Origin: Syncephalis fuscata
Lineage: Eukaryota > Zoopagomycota > Zoopagomycetes > Zoopagales > Piptocephalidaceae
Assembly: GCA_025786725.1 (NCBI GenBank)
Contig: JAHLTZ010000005.1
Location: 682,001 to 746,000 of the forward strand
DNA: 64,000 nucleotides
Direction of reading: 5' to 3'
This document shows, piece by piece, positions 27,532 to 56,081 of the stretch; within the stretch, counting starts at the first letter, position 1, and each line of letters starts with the position of its first letter. Under the pieces are notes generated by a model. That model searched no databases. It was not told where the DNA came from and worked only from the letters and a program-made list of their open reading frames with translations. The translations under genes were made by a program, and so were the position numbers.

Positions 27532-27947
27532 CTATACATTATTACTAGTGTGATTATTATTATTATTATTATTATTATTACGCTATTTTGCTTATTATTA
27601 TGTAATATTTACAAATAAAATTTTACCAACATATCAAATAATTTAATGTTTTATTTTATGCACCTAAACAGTAATTATGAAGTTGATAGCAATGATTTGG
27701 TGTATATGTTACCATTCTAATAAATAATACACTTGGATGTATTGATATTAAATGGTACAACTGTCTACGTTATTAAATCATAGCCAATCATACTGCTTAA
27801 TATCAATTAAATCTTAGTCTAATAAATAACTATGCAAGAATGTTGAGAACTAGAATATTAGACCAGATTAGATAGCTGAATTGATAAGGCTTGAATTAAG
27901 TACAGCTGTATTATAATAGCTATTTCATTTTATCCTTCGCTACTTGC
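27532..27947. other. Short intergenic region with (TTA)n tract
   Basis: This separates two tandem phosphatase genes. A (TTA)n microsatellite of about 29 bases occupies 27552-27580. The remainder is AT-rich promoter-like sequence without visible genes. Confidence 0.5.
27552..27580. repeat. (TTA)n microsatellite
   Basis: An uninterrupted ATT/TTA run of about 29 bases lies 20 bases after the stop of the WD40 phosphatase gene, probably in its 3' UTR. Confidence 0.9.
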
Positions 27948-29512
27948 ATGACGATGGCCTATCCACCGCTTCATATACTGACTGCCACTTATAATTTACA
28001 CCAACAACCTATACCGTCTGATATTACACAATGGCTAGGACAGCAATTAAAAGAGAATTCGTCGACAACTACTGACAGCTCGATAGTTGTGCCCGACTTG
28101 GTTGCTGTAGCTTTTCAAGAATTTGCTCCTTATCCAGAAGCTTTTCTTTCAACGCCTCATGAAACGCTAATTGAATGTGACGAGGCTATACGTTGTGCAC
28201 TTAATCATTGGACAAACGTAGAACATGGCAGCGGTAAAGAAACAGTCGATACTTGTGACAATAACAGCAAGGTTATGGAAACTAGCAAGCAAGGAGTATA
28301 TGAACAGATTGCCGTCCACACACTGGTAGGCATGGCACTTTTTGTGTATATTCGACGGGCAGCTCCATTTGCAGCTACATCTATTATAACAACTGATGTA
28401 GGCTGTGGTGTTGGCTGGGCTGGCAATAAGGGTGCAGTCGGTATTTATTGTCGTTTATATTGGCATCGAGTGACCGACAATGCCGACAATTCATTTGGTG
28501 TATTTAAAGATGAATACGCCGAACAGATTGAGTTGACAAAAATGGCCGATGAGCATAGTTTTACAACAGAGATTGGGTTTGTATGTGCTCATTTAATGGC
28601 TCATGCCTGGCAGGTAGAACGACGTAATCAAGAATTACAAATGATTATGGAGCGATTGGTATTTGAGCCACTTGCACAATCACTTAGAAATGATAAGAAT
28701 AGCAACTATAATCAGCAATCATATATGTCAAAGACGCGTACGCTACTTGAGCTACCTCTTGTCTTCCTTATGGGCGATCTTAATTATCGAGTTACACCAC
28801 AGGGTGGATCGGACAATAACAATGTAGCATGGTCGTGCGATGTAGCTCGTCGTATTCAAAAAGCACTGCTACATCAAATATCTAAAATATCGCCGATAGA
28901 CAATGATGTCGAATCATTGCTTGAGCTACGGAATACGTGCGATCAGCTAATAGTAGCTTGTCAGCAAAATACTGCTCATTCTCTGTCTAAATTTCAAGAA
29001 CCTGAGTGTCATTTTCCCCCTACTTACAAATTTAAGCTAAATTCTGATCAATATGCAGTTGAACAACGAACACCGTCCTGGTGCGATCGTATTCTTTATT
29101 ATGTTTACGGGGAAACGGGCGATGCGGATAAACCGTCGACGCCTACAGTGACAAACTTGTATTATAAGGCTTGCTTCAAGTATTGCCAATCGGACCATCG
29201 TCCAGTAGTGGCTCTGTTTCGCGTAGATATAGCACGCTTAAAGTATATAACACACCAAGTAGAGGAAGCGGTAGCAGCAGCTCCAGCATCTTCAAAAAGT
29301 ACTAGTGTTGGAACGAATAAAGTACATCCATTATCGGAAGATATGGAAAAAAGCTTATAGATCCATGGTGGCAATGGAAGCAAATCGTAGGGCGTATTAC
29401 TACATTTTACTTTGGAGGGACCTGGTGGCTGTTTACTTCTGGTTGGTGGTGGCGGATTGCCTTGACTGTTGCTTTAGCTTTTATAGGCTCGGCATATTAT
29501 CCAATAAGCTAA
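27948..29512 (+). CDS. Tail-anchored inositol 5-phosphatase, Inp54-like
   Basis: A second IPPc-domain phosphatase, apparently intronless. Motifs in order: LTATYNLHQQ, VAVAFQEF (catalytic Glu region), GWAGNKGAVGI, VCAHLMAHAWQVERRN, FLMGDLNYRV, PPTYKFKL, PSWCDRILYY and CQSDHRPVVALFRV. All the metal- and phosphate-binding residues of the family are present. The track frame ends at 29358-29360 just after an A6 run; one further A there would continue the protein into DPWWQWKQIVGR and a strongly hydrophobic end (WWWRIALTVALAFIGSAYY), stopping at 29510-29512. A C-terminal membrane tail is the signature of yeast Inp54, which is held on the ER and hydrolyses PI(4,5)P2, so I favour that homology. It lies head-to-tail with the WD40 phosphatase. 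Confidence 0.85.
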
Positions 29513-48738: not shown

Positions 48739-49990
48739 GGTAGTAGTTGTGTTATTGTTAAAGGAACAATAAAGTAAATCGATATAATGTTTGGTACGGC
48801 GTTGAATAGCGCGAGTACGATTGAAGTAAATCGAAATTCAAATAGCTTGAATAACCGTTGGTATAAAGCAAAAGAAGTAGCAATAAGCTATAATTTGTTA
48901 TCTGACAGGCAGTACTTGAAATAATTCAAACAATTGGACTGGTAGTGATGGCAACAATAATGATAGTATGGGAAACATGAACAAATAAATGGCCAATTTA
49001 AAGTTCTGAAACAGAAACCACTAATTGTTTACACAATGAATTAATGCGATTGAGTCACACTGATGGTTTATACTTGTTGAGTCATCGGCACCCGTTTAGT
49101 TTCAAATCATCAGAATGATTCAGCCATTTATTTAATTCCATGCATCATTGATTCCCCTATGGCATGCAATAACCAATAACGCGATAGCGAGTATGCAAAG
49201 ATGGATAAAAATAGATGCTAATGCTGATGAAAGATGTAATCGCTTATCTATTGCTGCTGCTACTTGATCCTTGTAATTTGGCAGTTTTAATTTCTACACT
49301 ATATTATGATTAATTTGCACTTTATTATTCATTATTTTAGTACGTATGATCGTTTTAAAAAGTAATATCTATTATTTCTAACAACTATAATTGCATTAGA
49401 AAATACTGTTTTTATTTATACTGTCATGAATAAGACGACTAACTAATTAATAAAATAGAAGTAAAGACCAGTACTTTATTATGAGAAATGGTAAATCATG
49501 TATGTATTACAATACTGATATTATGGTTATGATATTATGATAGTGTGGCTATGAAATACATTATGTGATTAAAAAATCTATTAAAACTGCACATAAACAG
49601 ACAATAATACGTATACCAAATATCAACACTAATTACTAGTAACAAATAACTATTACAAAGATGCCGTAGCTTAAAATATATTGATAGCCGAATTTTACAA
49701 AGTATAGCTCCTCTACAGTTTATGTGCATAACATTTTAAATTCAATAAAAAGCTACAGCTTTATTATTCTAACAGTTCCATGAACTATAAGGCTAAATGG
49801 CTTATAAAATTAAAGCAAAACTGGCACTAACAGACCAATATGAATGATCGCCAATGATCCGTTAGGTACAAGACTGAACTATCTTCCAATAACACTAGCA
49901 GTATTAACTTGAGTTTCATAGCTGGCCTTTAGATCCTTTCTTTGGTTAGATTTGTTTTGATGGCCGTATATTTGGTTTTACTTCTGGATT
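48739..49990. other. AT-rich intergenic region
   Basis: I see only AT-rich sequence with no coding frame worth supporting. The first 300 bases (48739-49050) presumably serve as promoter of the leftward gene. The frame at 49535-49729 lacks any recognisable feature. Confidence 0.4.
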
Positions 49991-50230
49991 TTACTCTTTT
50001 TGTGAAGGAGGCTGTGATGGCGGTATATGAATAGGACAAATTATGCATTTGGGGCCAGTATTGCAAACCTTCATGCAAACTCTACCCTTTCCCTTGCAGG
50101 TTCGAGCTTCCTTACGGCTGCATGGCTGACTTCCTGCCTGAGAATTTGGCATTGGTTCGGCGTCTACCGTAGCAACACTAGCCACAAAGATGATGGCAAC
50201 GGTACAGATGGCAACAGCTGAAAGCTTCAT
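49991..50230 (-). CDS. Six-cysteine small secreted peptide
   Basis: I do not recognise a family. The ATG at 50228-50230 gives a textbook signal peptide (MKLSAVAICTVAIIFVASVA, ending near VDAEP); an ATG nine codons upstream is in frame but would put polar residues before it, so I prefer the inner start. The mature peptide of about 55 residues has six cysteines (PC, TC, VC, VC, KC, IC) within 31 residues, several lysines and arginines, and a proline-rich end (PPSQPPSQKE). Single exon, 79 codons. The cysteine density suggests a disulfide-stabilised extracellular peptide. Neighbouring DNA is much more AT-rich. Confidence 0.65.
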   Translation of the reverse strand: MKLSAVAICTVAIIFVASVATVDAEPMPNSQAGSQPCSRKEARTCKGKGRVCMKVCNTGPKCIICPIHIPPSQPPSQKE

Positions 50231-51098
50231 GGTATTTTGAATCAACAGAATATGCAAGTAAAGGTTTGCAAAAAGTCAGGATGGAGTGAAGTGTGTTATA
50301 ATGTTGCTCAATTCTACGTCTTAAACATGCGCTATTTAAAGCTTTGGACATTGTAAATAATTCTATGGCATAGTATTTATTGGTATGGGATATGGATGGA
50401 TATCCAGTTTCAAGATTGCGCAGCTATATTTGCTACTATGTTTCAGCCGTTTATTAGGCTAAAAGTGGCGTGAATCTACTGCGTATAGTCAATTGGCAGC
50501 GCCTATGTTTATTTCATACGTTTAATTCTAATGATACGCATATTACTGACAAAACGTTAATAAACACTAATTGCAATCTATATAATTTACAGCATATGTT
50601 TATTTGTTGTCTAATATATCTACAACTATCATCGGCAAAATATATTGAATGCCAAATACTTTATTAGTATAGGCCAATAGGTTGGAACGTAGTAATGCGC
50701 CGTTTCAATGCGTGCAATGGCAGTTCTTTCTATTCAAGTGCAACCCAAAACTAACCAACTCTCCTAAAGTCGCATTATACCAGTACCTATTGTTTTAGCA
50801 GACATTTTTAGCTACACGAAACGTCAAACTGACATGCTTGTCGTTACTTTCATAGGCCTATGTATCAAGTACGATGCTTTTTACGCAATCAATTGTAACG
50901 ATTTAAATAATTGACGAGTTGATTGGATTAATTTGTGTTTAAATGATCATTCACAATAAATATTAACGTAATGTAATGTCATTATCATTTTATAAAATTG
51001 AATATAAATAAATGTAATAGGGGGAATCGTGGTAACCTAAACGGTCAACGCGTCTTCCCTAAGTAGAAAATGTTGGTTCGCCTAGTTTGAATCTTGTT
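50231..51098. other. Region between secreted peptide and Fanzor 3' end
   Basis: No gene is seen. From about 51020 rightward the GC content rises sharply where the 3' part of the Fanzor begins. If this Fanzor follows the TnpB rule, its guide RNA would be expected near this 3' boundary, but I could not identify one by eye and no terminal repeats were found. Confidence 0.4.
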
Positions 51099-53834
51099 TT
51101 AGGAAATGCGTGATGGGATCTTCCGTAGAAGAAATGGTTGATATTCCAACACGTGAGGAGAGCCACCAACGGTTTCAGTTGTAGATGGCAGGTTCTGCGT
51201 TGCGCGCGGATAGGTTCGAAATGAACCGTCTATTCTCCTAGGGTGGCAGGCAAATGCTGCAAATGCCCGGTTAGGTCCTACGGACCGTTGTTTCACTCAA
51301 GCTAATAAATCCAAATACTTATCTGAAAGAAAGATATTCATCAATTTTAATGGCAACAAGATTTCCACGACGCTTTCGTCGTTTCAACATTTGCCAGCAC
51401 TTGTTGACAACAGCAAATCGATAGCCCTTGTATACATTGTTTTGCTTGCCAAACATTGCATCGCCGAATACAACAAGTGGCATTTTGCTAGTTGTTTGTA
51501 ACCTTGCTGGGCGCCATCCTTCTTTCACTCTTGGTGGCTCACTATTTAATTATATATAAATCATATATTAGTATACACATTAATAAGATATTAATAATAA
51601 CTTACCTTTCAGCCACTTTAGTAATTGTTACTATTGGCGGATCATCTTTCTTCTTCTTTCCGTGTCTCTTTCTGTGATTCTTTCCTGTCCTTCCTCTCTT
51701 CTGTCTCTTCTTTCTTGCTTCCTTTCTTTTCTTCCTGCTGTACTTTTTTCCACCGTTGGTCAGTATGTTGCCATTTCTTCGGCTGCTCGCTGCACTCCTT
51801 GATAGCCATGAAAACGTGGTTTGGTGTGCTGGAATTGTAAAAGTTAAACAGTTTGGCCATGTACTGAAAGACATAGGAAATATGTTGTCTGTATTGTAGT
51901 ACACTTTGTGTTTTACCCGTTGGTAACTCAGTTTCAGCTTTTTTAATTTCTTCCAGGTCTTTTTGTCCATTTTGTTTTCGTAGACGGCGGATAGAGCCGG
52001 TATAGTTGTAATATTCTTTTGTTGAACATCGTCGGATTTATGGAATTCATTTCCATGTCCATATGCAGCAGTAAAGACTTGGCTAATGCCAGGATCTACT
52101 GCACATGGACGGAAATACTGGGCAATATCTTCACTCCTGAAATCAGCAACTGAAAGTTCAACATTATTGCAATTTGACTTTCTACTTTCCCGGTAAAAGT
52201 GAAAGTCAACAGAGTAGCCATCCGTTGTAATTGAATTCATAAATTTAATTCTTCTTTGTTCGCTACTATTTAATAATTCTTCTTCACTACAAATACATAG
52301 TTGTTTTAATTATTATAATTTCATTTTATATATTAAATACCTTTTGTAGCCCAGTTTTCAAAATTAAAAACATCATAAAAATTACGTGTATTATTTTCAT
52401 AATAATTCTCATTATGTGCTGGATATAAATAAATTATTTCAGACAAAGCCAATGCGCTCACGTGTATAAAGCACCACTTGAAAGAAACATTAGGAACGAG
52501 TGCGAAGAGACGTGGTAAGTGTATTGGTGGTGGAGGTGTATGTGCTGCTTGTAAGTGTATTTTCTATATTCACTGAGTATATACCGTAAGCAGGCACAAA
52601 ATCACCTGGCGATGCAGAAAGCTTTGTTAAAGTGGCACGTTCTGTTATCACTTTTTCAAGTTCCACGCACACACGTCCAACGGCAGCAGCAAATTCTTTG
52701 TTGTTTTTGTAAATATCACTTTCAAGCGGTTTTGGCTTTCCGCCTGCCACACGCTCATAAATGTATTCACTTGCAATACATTTAATATAATGAAGAGGAA
52801 TTGCCTATTTGATGTAAATAAATAAAGTCGAGATTAAATATATAAGCTATTTATTATCTACTTACCCTGGAGACATAGTCACGAAGTCGAAAGACTGCAA
52901 ATTGTGTTACATGACTTTCAAATTGCTCAACAATAATGTTTTGGTATACTGTTGCTAGTGTTGTACATGCTGATAATAAACATTGCTGTAGCATTGGATA
53001 CCGTCTAATTCATAGACAGCTGCAGGATAATTGCCTCAATGCATTCCAATTTTTAATGATATCTTGAAAAGTTCATCGTTTTTGTTTTTAATTTTCCTGT
53101 CTTCTTCAATTTCCTTGCCCATAGCCAATCGGCAGACTAAATAAAAATAGTCTTTGTGTACAGATAACTTGGTATTGCTTCATTTTTTGAAATAATATAT
53201 AGATTGGTAAATAGTTGGACACGGATTATAACCTCTCGAACAAATTTACATACTTCATTAACTTTGCTTTTTAGCTGGCGCTCATGCTTTGGCCACACAC
53301 ATGAACTCCATGGCAATTTGCGCGTAAATACTTCAACGCCAAATCCGAGTTCAGCCACTGCCTTCTTCTTCATTGTATTTGAAGGGCGTTTGTGTGCCAA
53401 AGCTCAGCTGACTTATGGCCTTCTTCATCACCAGATAGACATTCTTCATTAGAAATGCTTCATTTGGCATAGGACGCCCTCTTTGCCAACGTCCTTTCTG
53501 TTTAGCCTGCTTATTAGCAGACTTTTCCTCACTGGTCAATTTTCTTTTTTGACCAACTATATAAAATGCTATTAATAAAAGTATACAGAATAAACAAAAT
53601 ATAGATACTAATCTGAATATCACTTGCAGACTTTGCTGTGTCTTCGCAGCTTGCATGTCCATGTTTTTTACAATTAACGCAAACTACTACAATAGATATT
53701 AACCATATAAATAAATTTAAATCATAAATAATAAATATTATCATTACCTTCTTTTGTTTCTTATATTTCAACTCATTTTCTTCCTTCTTTTTCTGCTTAA
53801 TAGCAGCAATAAATTCATGAACGAATAGTGGCAT
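51099..53834 (-). CDS. Fanzor: eukaryotic TnpB/Cas12-related RNA-guided nuclease
   Basis: Fanzor proteins are eukaryotic relatives of TnpB, RuvC nucleases guided by a non-coding RNA and carried by, or derived from, mobile elements. The start is at 53832-53834 (MPLFVHEFIAAIKQKKK). A zinc-knuckle-like CVNCKKHGHASC follows (about 53640-53685), then helical Fanzor segments (VNEVCKFVREVIIRVQLFTN near 53210-53260; NIIVEQFESHVTQFAVFRLR near 52880-52940; RVCVELEKVITERATLTKL). The core begins with ITTDGYSVDFHFYR and RuvC-I CAVDPGISQVFTA (Asp codon at 52094-52096). A family-typical QRAAEEMA, then NILTNGGKKYSRKKRK with a basic nuclear-localisation-like run, comes next. After an intron (about 51540-51602) come EPPRVKEGW, MPLVVFGDAMFGK and RuvC-II AIKIDEYLS (Glu at 51337-51339). 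CxxC (CSIC, about 51250-51261) follows out of frame, and the end is scrambled. At least six short introns are implied. The gene is recognisable through RuvC-II; integrity of the last 80 residues is doubtful. Confidence 0.82.
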
Positions 53835-54668
53835 GATTTAAAAATAGTTAAAATTGAAATACAATATAACAATACAAATCGATAAGTTAGTATGATACGT
53901 ATAATAAATAATGCCTAATATGTCTCTTTTTATTACTACGTTTCTGTTTCATTTACCGCTGCATTCTTGCATTTCCATTCCATTTATACTGCACTTCTTG
54001 CATATATTACTGCATTTTTGCCCCTTTTATTACTACATTTCTGTTTTCTATTTTTATATTAACTTGCTAAAATAATAATCTAAAGTAGTATTCATACTTT
54101 ACAGCTTTTAAAAAGTGTAGTCATAAAATATAATATTATGGTTATACAGTTTTTTCTACTATAAAAATCCAGAATTCACCTACTAAATGTTCCAAGTGTT
54201 GATATGGCATTACATAAAAACACTATATAATAAGATATCGAATATTATCAATAAAATATTTAAGCTTTTTTCAATCCCTGACTATCCTGACCAATTCTTA
54301 AATTAATGTAATTACTATTTTTATTGTATAAACGTAACAAATTACAACCAAAGTAACCTTTATTTATATTTCTTTTATTAACTTAACATTAATTTTATCG
54401 AAAATGCCAAATAAATTGCTCATTTTACAAGATTAACTATAAAGACTTGAATAATTGACAAGTCGATTAAATTTATTTATATTTAAACTACTATTGTCAT
54501 TTAAGCTCATTCTATTGCACTTTTCCTTTTCACTTAATATTTAAATTTGAATTTATTATTGATTGACTATCACTCTGTCCCCAAAGCACAATTTGTTTCA
54601 ATCAAAGTTATGCCGTTATTATACATAACATAGTATATTACTTCCTATTAAAATATTATTTATTAATT
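53835..54668. other. AT-rich region upstream of the Fanzor
   Basis: It holds the Fanzor promoter and no visible gene. A short duplicated phrase, TTTTATTACTAC(G/A)TTTCTGTTT, occurs near 53927 and 54025, with TGCATT(C/T)TTGC phrases between. Otherwise it is featureless AT-rich DNA. Confidence 0.4.
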
Positions 54669-55200
54669 ATTTTAAATAATGTAACATACCATTTGATTTC
54701 TTTAAACATTTAAGGTCGATTATTGTTGTTGGCCATGTGTAGAAAGACTGATGAATATCAATAGAAGCCATATGATTGCAATTCCATATCGCTTCCGCAT
54801 TTGTTGTTGTTATATCTACGTACAGTGTGATTATTGCATCTAAATGGTCTATTCTATTTTCTAATATTCTACTATTGCATTTTGGACATATTTGTGATGT
54901 AAGATCAAAATCAAATAATTAATATAAATGTCGTTTATTAAACAGCCACTTTCCTATAGCCAATCTGACTAAATAAATGACATTTTAACAATTAATATCA
55001 TAATAAAATATATATATATTAAAGCATAATAAAGATAACTAATTAATTACATTATTATACTAATAATTACACATGAATTAATTAATGTTGGATGCAGTAT
55101 TATACATGTTATAGTGATGAACGAGTGTTTAATTGTGTCTAAAAGTGTTGAGGGGTGAAATGGATAAATAAAAATGTAAGAGTCACAGTACAGTAGCTCC
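54669..55200 (-). repeat. Fanzor-tail-derived repeat, copy 2
   Basis: Second copy of the segment at 44338-44875, same orientation, about 10.3 kb away. On the minus strand it reads DFDLTSQICPKCNSRI (about 54860-54910), and WNCNHMASIDI (about 54740-54775) in place of the NRD...NI motif, so Arg and Asp of the RuvC-III box have both changed. The 55035-55149 block matches 44714-44828 at 113 of 115 bases by eye, much better than the coding-derived part. After 55149 a short insertion interrupts the similarity, which resumes briefly to about 55200. Confidence 0.7.
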
Positions 55201-56081
55201 ATCAACGTAATCTATTGATATTAATTGTCTAATATTATGTGATAAATACACTGTGTATAGTTGTAAAAATTGTATATTGTCAATTAATGTAATTGACGTT
55301 CATTTTAGTTCATATTATCAAAATGACTCAGCAAGTATAAATTGATCATAATAATTCAACTATTTATTTTAATTCATATAATAATGATTTGTACTATGCA
55401 GTAACAATCATAGTAAGAACAAAAAACATACACGTACACGCAATAGTCGATAGCGTGATGGTGAATAGGCAAATATGAATAAAATAAACGATAAAAGGTA
55501 TATTCGCTTATCTATAGCCAAAAAAGCAAAAGGCCATGGATATGAAAAATCAATCAAATAAACAACGAAATCTATTGGTCAAAAATAGACAAACAAACAA
55601 ACAAACAAACGATAAGAGTGGCAGTTAAATAATAATAGAGTAGGAGGTGTGGCCATACGAACGATCAAATGCATACTTATGTGTGGCTAGCTATACACAC
55701 ACACACACGTACATAAAAGTAACTGAACAAAAGTGTTTTAAAAGAACGACCGAACAAGATTGAATAATAATAATAATAAAAGTAGAAGTAGTAAAAAGCG
55801 CGGAAAAGGACGATGCTAATGCAATGGCGGGACGTTGTTATTGTTGTATGAATAGCAGTACGACAATAAAAAAGAAAGACATCAAATAGTAATAATAGGA
55901 ATGATAATGATAATAATAGTAAAATAATTGCCTGTAAACATAAGTAATTCAAAATAATTATAAATGATCATGTCTTAATAAATTAAAACAAGTCATTCAT
56001 CAAATGTCTAATAGTGAAAAGTCTTCATCGTTGATAATAATAACAATAATAATAATACTAGTATTCATGGTATTATCGTTA
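55201..56081. other. Intergenic region with (ACAA)n tract
   Basis: No gene is seen. It carries a tetranucleotide (ACAA)n microsatellite at about 55588-55610 and a run of TAATAA repeats near 55763-55780. It is the 3' flank of the large leftward gene. Confidence 0.5.

Follow-up and report, generated by a model that had tools for sequence, protein, structure and literature searches.

The window analysed here is a stretch of 64,000 nucleotides of Syncephalis fuscata contig JAHLTZ010000005.1 (positions 682,001 to 746,000), and on its minus strand it carries the remains of an intron-bearing, Fanzor-derived gene, the features of which are collected in Table 1. A first-pass annotation, made from the letters alone, had placed a Fanzor gene at 51099..53834, and every motif that it quoted was found, all on the minus strand. 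The start of that gene, an ATG at 53834, was retained, but its end had to be moved to near 51323, since positions 51020-51312 are an interspersed repeat. The motifs ITTDGYSVDF, CAVDPGISQ and GGKKYSRKKRK lie in the open frame 51602-52309, MPLVVFGDAMFGK and AIKIDEYL in the open frame 51319-51549, and the zinc-knuckle CVNCKKHGHASC near 53680-53640. The 5′ limit of the element was set at the point where the copies diverge upstream.

Table 1. Features of the Fanzor-derived element in the window and of related sequences at other loci (positions refer to the window unless a locus is named).
Feature	Position	Strand	Remarks
Fanzor-derived element	50877..54560	-	limits approximate; blastn against 17 sibling loci and end comparison
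Element 5′ noncoding part	54089..54560	-	kept in deletion derivatives
Exon 1, MPLFVHEFIAAIKQKKKEENELKYKKQKK	53748..53834	-	ATG at 53834; placed against P0003
Exon with zinc-knuckle-like CVNCKKHGHASC	53613..53690	-	limits approximate
N-terminal region, broken frame	52866..53556	-	homolog matches in frames -3, -2 and -1
Exon, IKCIASEYIYERV...LSASPG...PNVSFKWCFI, broken frame	52341..52804	-	homolog alignment, tblastn
RuvC-I exon, CAVDPGISQ + IRRCSTKEYYNYTGS + GGKKYSRKKRK	51606..52286	-	two frame switches; sole genomic copy found
Intron GTAAGT..AAATAG	51542..51605	-	holds the 3′ breakpoint (~51569) of the deletion shared by siblings
RuvC-II exon, MPLVVFGDAMFGK...AIKIDEYLS	51323..51541	-	19 other genome matches to the 52-aa core
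SINE-like repeat in place of the siblings' TNB/RuvC-III exon	51020..51312	+	40 genome matches including its own
Element 3′ terminal noncoding part	50877..51019	-	common to siblings
N-terminal-part derivatives	L029 1049-1986; L041 873-1738; L028 1501-1996		
Diverged repeat arrays	L009 (reverse complement) 458-2397; L015 1323-4641; L022 4826-7897		

By eye, GT..AG introns of 54-64 nt were recognised at 51542-51605, 52287-52340 and 52805-52865, with more candidates toward the start, and the frame is lost across the splice at 52287-52340. The 235-aa open frame at 51602-52309 is the coding frame only in part: homologs match its first part, then another minus-strand frame at about 52040-51770 and then further frames, the IRRCSTKEYY part being matched outside the 235-aa frame. 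In the homolog alignment, two frame switches fall within the RuvC-I exon, one following GHGNEFH and the other close to MATY/LTNGG, and the N-terminal half has several more (homolog alignment and tblastn); with P0001 to P0004 as tblastn queries, the homologous parts are spread over three minus-strand frames. An intact nuclease-coding frame is absent from the window copy. Reading through the minus-strand exons, with an X at each frame switch, gave a frame-broken protein of 747 aa, in which the number of switches is partly an arbitrary choice.

A search of 5.8 billion proteins with this read-through, in which the best 8000 candidates were scored, returned three matches: EC973_004497 of Apophysomyces ossiformis (E 1.6e-102, 43% identity, 68% query coverage), a metagenomic protein carrying PF07282 (E 3.0e-64) and a protein of Umbelopsis sp. 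PMI_123 (E 5.5e-52). The E-value of the top match puts the motif set beyond chance, and the spliced protein does have the significant match whose absence the first-pass annotation had named as telling against a Fanzor. A profile made from the three matches retrieved 23 proteins; an organism is named for 21, among which the genera Mucor, Parasitella, Rhizopus, Helicostylum, Mycotypha, Cokeromyces and Apophysomyces are found; P0002 is the only one of the three seed proteins to recur. A homolog profile of 22 of the 25 collected proteins (P0017, P0022 and P0023 excluded) matched SpuFz1 (PDB 8gkh) at E 3.5e-13, the sole solved Fanzor that it matched, and P0003 as a single sequence matched the same chain at E 0.025. 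The alignment has two significant stretches, the RuvC-I DP block and a block running from DEYKTS over the zinc finger to WNRD. Counted by position along the aligned chain, the catalytic residues D383, E541 and D606 of SpuFz1 (PMC11423790) fall on the Asp of DP, the Glu of DEY and the Asp of WNRD, and the window copy has the first two: CAVDPG aligns to homologs whose profile covers the D383 block, which gives the RuvC-I Asp, and KIDEYL corresponds to IDEF of the homologs and to LDEYKTS (E541) of SpuFz1, which gives the RuvC-II Glu just before the zinc finger position. When nine exons or frames were compared singly with Pfam, none reached the cut-off of a Fanzor/TnpB family, the nearest being PF07282 at 54670-54918 (E 0.11), and a phmmer search of the PDB with a preliminary joined reading of 301 aa had six matches, none below E 0.11 and none to such a nuclease. 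In a tree of 26 rows, unrooted and with no Fanzor2 sequence included, the window copy, on a long branch, groups with two Apophysomyces proteins (support 98/95). In summary, these alignments support the derivation of the gene from a Fanzor, as the annotation had proposed.

The 3′ end of the window copy is interrupted. Homology with the siblings ends at 51313 and restarts at 51021 (blastn), with about 340 bp of sibling sequence lost at the repeat that lies between. This repeat, of about 293 bp, has 40 genome matches including its own, 31 of the other 39 being at 93-96% identity (best 40 of 63 candidates scored). Its head is tRNA-like by eye, and ARAGORN called no tRNA in the window. The copy at L059 is bounded by a 20-bp direct repeat and the one at L060 by a 23-base direct repeat, one side of which lies 17 bases off the repeat; on the basis of these features, we read the interspersed sequence as a SINE. 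By eye, the window copy of the repeat has no flanking direct repeat, which, together with the lost sibling sequence, suggests a deletion that occurred with or after the insertion. Several copies of the repeat lie near contig ends.

As a result of this replacement, the C4 zinc finger (TNB) and the RD, both present in the sibling tails, are missing from the window copy, which therefore lacks the RuvC-III Asp carried by the same sibling exon; the motif D-X-[TS][TS]-XX-C4-X-RD has been given for Fanzors (PMC3627910). Judged from its sequence, the window copy cannot be a nuclease, since neither the zinc finger nor the third Asp of the catalytic triad is left and the frame is broken. The suggestion of a decaying element in the first-pass annotation thus agrees with the frame switches, the absent exon and the SINE-like insertion, and the alternative suggestion of domestication fails on the same three points. 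It is true that a single near-complete, intron-bearing copy persists, as would be expected of an expressed host gene built from a Fanzor, but an intact frame under protein constraint is not found, the frame being broken and the sibling tails lying at neutral expectation (see below). With the frame broken and an exon missing, we rejected this reading, which we find scarcely credible. Nor do the introns, taken in the annotation as a sign of long residence in the host, argue for domestication, since the siblings carry the RuvC-II/TNB intron as well and Fanzor genes with several exons have been described within transposons, those of Chlamydomonas having 5 to 10 (PMC3627910).

The siblings were reached through the 52-aa core of the window's RuvC-II exon, which has 20 genome matches including its own; the other 19 fall within 17 loci. 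At one of these, L009, a GT..AG intron separates the RuvC-II exon from a following exon that reads ICHVCKEKSLIEKIAVNNPTHHTTLVCQNCQVVWNRDVMASKNIF, and the joined tail matches Cas12f1-like_TNB (PF07282) with 42.8 bits against a cut-off of 26.3. The TNB exon of L009, used as a query (E 1e-8), matched 12 of the 17 loci but had no match in the window, so that this exon is present in 12 of the 18 sequences examined (the window and the 17 loci). When the window region 49001-56000 was compared with the 17 loci (blastn, E 1e-5), none had a match to window positions 51611-54025. A single deletion junction, at which sequence preceding the gene meets the last intron, is common to eight of them in the alignment (L009, L010, L013, L014, L016, L017, L018 and L021). 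In L011, L012 and L015 the tail is present with different upstream joins; L019, L020, L022, L023 and L024 are diverged loci, and L025 is a member of a second family, family 2. Some loci are near-duplicates: L013 and L014 agree at 99.3% over 6,851 bases and are perhaps one place assembled twice (C287 is a 31-kb contig), L017 and L018 at 97.1% over 2,625 bases, and L022 and L023 at 94.3% over 6,744 bases, so there were fewer events than loci. Three further loci (L028, L029 and L041) retain DNA from the N-terminal part of the Fanzor, with the tail absent from the stretch examined (Table 1), which indicates that other deletions were copied too and that retention of the tail is not universal. A piece of the 3′ terminus lies downstream of the N-terminal part in L029 and upstream of it in L041.

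Heads and tails of the gene differ greatly in number across the genome, where the searches scored the best candidates only. Among these, the RuvC-I exon (227 aa, E 0.001) has one match, the window itself; P0001, which comprises the N-terminus and RuvC-I and no tail (E 0.01), has four, all in the window; and a RuvC-I piece of P0007 (E 1) has two, both in the window. P0002, which comprises RuvC-I and the tail, gave 44 matches, of which two are the RuvC-I matches in the window and 42 are tail matches (residue 361 or later); grouped by position, the latter make 37 loci including the window. With family-2 DNA, the tail of L066, 41 matches were obtained (best 40 of 69 candidates scored): 19 extend over the greater part of the tail, 21 are confined to roughly the last 100 bases of it, and one is a second piece of a locus already listed. 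The profile PF07282 had 86 genome matches at E up to 0.1, 26 of them above the cut-off, and zinc ribbons of other kinds may account for the weak ones.

The imbalance could be an artefact if heads of other families exist that are too diverged to detect, and the N-terminal halves of Fanzors are indeed described as more variable than the C-terminal halves (PMC3627910), and 20 of the 36 tail loci beyond the window were examined, in part. However, RuvC-I queries from several proteins match the window alone, and the head parts of 15 proteins, cut manually, all match the window in tblastn (E 1e-3) and match none of 23 other loci. The tail loci examined are thus headless by this comparison, which weakens the artefact explanation to the point where we consider it improbable. 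Intact copies could exist in unassembled parts of the genome.

Several observations accompany these searches. In L066, the reverse complement of 935-1318 is unbroken, with IDEYNTSKVC...WQRDVNASRNM in a 131-aa open frame, and no head was found within the 1.5 kb examined. By eye, L068 has a short ATG exon with a GT donor upstream of its family-2 tail. Directly upstream of the element in the window, on the same strand, an open stretch at 54667-54918 reads LTSQICPKCNSRI...WNCN; it resembles the family-1 tail weakly (32% over 53 aa, E 7.6e-5; PF07282 E 0.11), is possibly a decayed zinc-finger tail of a third Fanzor family, and was left out of the counts. By eye, L067 and L068 each have an inverted relative of this stretch upstream of their family-2 tail.

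The copies are dispersed in the genome and share parts of the element, as expected for carriage by a transposable element, and the sequence upstream of the element 5′ part varies between them. The window copy has at its termini an imperfect direct repeat of 82 nt (71% identical). None of the 21 inverted pairs listed in this copy was accepted as termini, and neither inverted termini nor a target duplication nor a transposase could be tied to the element; nor were the 14 genome matches to the MULE domain linked to it. Beside the tail elements lie long arrays of diverged repeats that are shared across loci (Table 1). By analogy with the Fanzor-bearing Helitron2 elements of Chlamydomonas, the excess of tails might be a side effect of copying that proceeds from the 3′ end, in a one-ended or rolling-circle-like manner, together with frequent internal deletion. 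The elements CRe-1,2,3 show 5′ truncation, internal deletions and nearly all 3′ ends intact (PMC3627910), and the variable sequence beyond the 5′ part in our copies would fit such a process. Nevertheless, one junction and a common 5′ part in eight copies fit the amplification of a single derivative better, and a Helitron Rep domain (Helitron_like_N) was not found in the genome search, the control for which could give no signal and is uninformative. We therefore hold copying from the 3′ end to be a serious alternative that is nonetheless rather less probable than its negation.

We then examined whether the tail exons are constrained. Unique changes from the consensus were tested by a simulation that preserves the substitution spectrum. 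Among 11 copies, the RuvC-II exon has 11 synonymous, 24 replacement and 2 stop changes, compared with 9.2, 25.5 and 2.1 under neutrality, and the TNB exon has 8, 26 and 0, compared with 8.7, 23.7 and 1.6; four copies of family 2 have 18, 45 and 4, compared with 17.9, 46.5 and 2.6. The tail exons are thus at neutral expectation in a simulation that is also compatible with weak recent constraint. In the TNB exon, the catalytic Asp is lost in five of 12 copies, two duplicate pairs included. Plain pN/pS is 0.65 among the 11 tail copies, 0.91 between these copies and the window, and 0.47 when the five diverged loci are compared with the remaining 12 sequences; in the first and last of these values an older constraint is visible. 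We conclude from these patterns of change that the tails have probably drifted since spreading, as if neutral, and the intact consensus of each tail suggests that they spread from good copies.

Tails might have been retained for another reason, namely that the 3′ end of a Fanzor encodes its guide RNA, with which the derivatives could serve or exploit a Fanzor in trans. TnpB is reported to make its guide RNA from its own mRNA (PMC10278001), tail loci outnumber RuvC-I loci by 37 to 1, and the C4 finger, the Glu and the Asp are intact in the consensus tails. Folded as RNA, the final 310 bases of the element at L009 (L009:1891-2200, minus strand) give z -3.15 against shuffles, and ten family-1 3′ ends, compared with dinucleotide shuffles, give z -0.39 to -4.23 (mean about -2.6). 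However, the folded copies are related to one another, an unrelated 300-nt stretch of the window reaches z -3.35, and the family-1 antisense strand, at z 0.27 to -3.48, comes as low in one copy. Comparable stability is not seen in three 3′ ends of family 2 (z -0.05, -0.05 and -1.28), and the 126-nt 3′ end folded as DNA is not stabler than its shuffles (z 0.13). The consensus fold of ten family-1 copies has 66 pairs, none of which (0/66) is changed on both sides, and Rfam has no match at E up to 1 in the window region 50700-55300. Furthermore, in a comparison of nine copies that excludes L012 and L021, the C-terminal stretch (identity 0.89), the 3′ noncoding part (0.86) and the terminus (0.83) are less conserved than the RuvC-II exon (0.94), the intron (0.96) and the TNB exon (0.93). 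Taken together, these results leave retention for the sake of a guide RNA unlikely, though worth keeping in mind. A near-invariant hairpin, GGCAGACCAGCTGAGTTTGCC, lies over the end of the L009 coding tail.

We also considered how the gene reached this genome. Its named relatives are all from fungi that we take to be Mucoromycota, and Syncephalis species are parasites of Mucorales. An inositol-phosphatase-type gene at 27900-29360 in the window matched three proteins at E 1e-60 (best 8000 scored), which are itself, a Syncephalis plumigaleata protein (49%, E 6.3e-131) and one metagenomic protein, with no Mucorales protein passing that threshold among the best 8000 scored. The Mucoromycota relatives, the Syncephalis-best host gene and a family-1 fold better than chance together prompted a fuller scenario: a Fanzor transposon would have moved between a fungus of the Mucoromycota and a lineage close to the mycoparasitic Zoopagomycota, the autonomous form would have died, and tail derivatives with a folded guide RNA would have spread through a Fanzor in trans. 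As a whole, this scenario is very unlikely. The transfer between fungi by itself is possible, its basis being one host gene and uneven sampling. A small Cys-rich reading at 49991-50275 (minus strand), with a signal-peptide-like start MKLSAVAICTVAIIFVASVATVDA, is possibly a secreted peptide gene.

In summary, the locus is very probably a dead copy of a Fanzor transposon, internally deleted derivatives of which have multiplied. It would once have been an intron-bearing Fanzor gene carried by a transposon. Fanzor1 has been described in many transposon superfamilies (Bao and Jurka 2013, PMC3627910). The intact protein would have bound a guide RNA made from the 3′ end of the element and cut DNA by the RuvC triad formed by the D of CAVDPG, the E of KIDEY and the D of WNRD. 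Most of its relatives in this genome are non-autonomous derivatives: a single internal deletion brought sequence that lies 5′ of the start codon up against the last intron, the one preceding the RuvC-II exon, and the shortened element was copied to many sites, presumably by a transposase in trans; a second family appears to have reached the same tail-only state. Mobilisation in trans, the reason for which tails were kept and a past guide-RNA function are parts of this account that we infer.

The case appears to show a Fanzor lineage dying in a small fungal genome, with one core-bearing wreck and dozens of tail-only descendants, and it offers a natural series for the question of whether a Fanzor 3′ end is kept as a source of guide RNA or is a mere transposon end. 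It also implies that TNB matches in Pfam searches count tails rather than nucleases, and that introns in a Fanzor are no mark of domestication. In the titles and abstract openings that our literature search returned, tail-only Fanzor derivatives in fungi were not found as a topic.

Among known systems, the Mucoromycota Fanzors (Apophysomyces ossiformis EC973_004497 and those of Umbelopsis, Mucor, Parasitella and Rhizopus) have the same block order as the window copy, sharing with it the RuvC-I DPG, RRCST-EYY-TGS, the basic segment, FGD/MFGK and the IDEY Glu, but the window copy is frame-broken and without TNB and RuvC-III. SpuFz1 is remote in sequence, although its catalytic Asp and Glu align in the window and its third Asp in the siblings. 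In Mucor circinelloides, copies of MCi-2 are likewise alike in their 3′ part and unlike in their 5′ parts; they differ from the present element in the 99% identity over 6 kb of their Fanzor-encoding 3′ part (PMC3627910). The Chlamydomonas elements CRe-1,2,3 belong to another host and have Helitron features not seen in the present element, but as Fanzor Helitron2 elements they share with it multi-exon genes, internal deletions and an excess of 3′ ends (PMC3627910). Internally deleted, 3′-biased Fanzor elements have therefore already been described in Chlamydomonas, and the imbalance between heads and tails seen here has a precedent.
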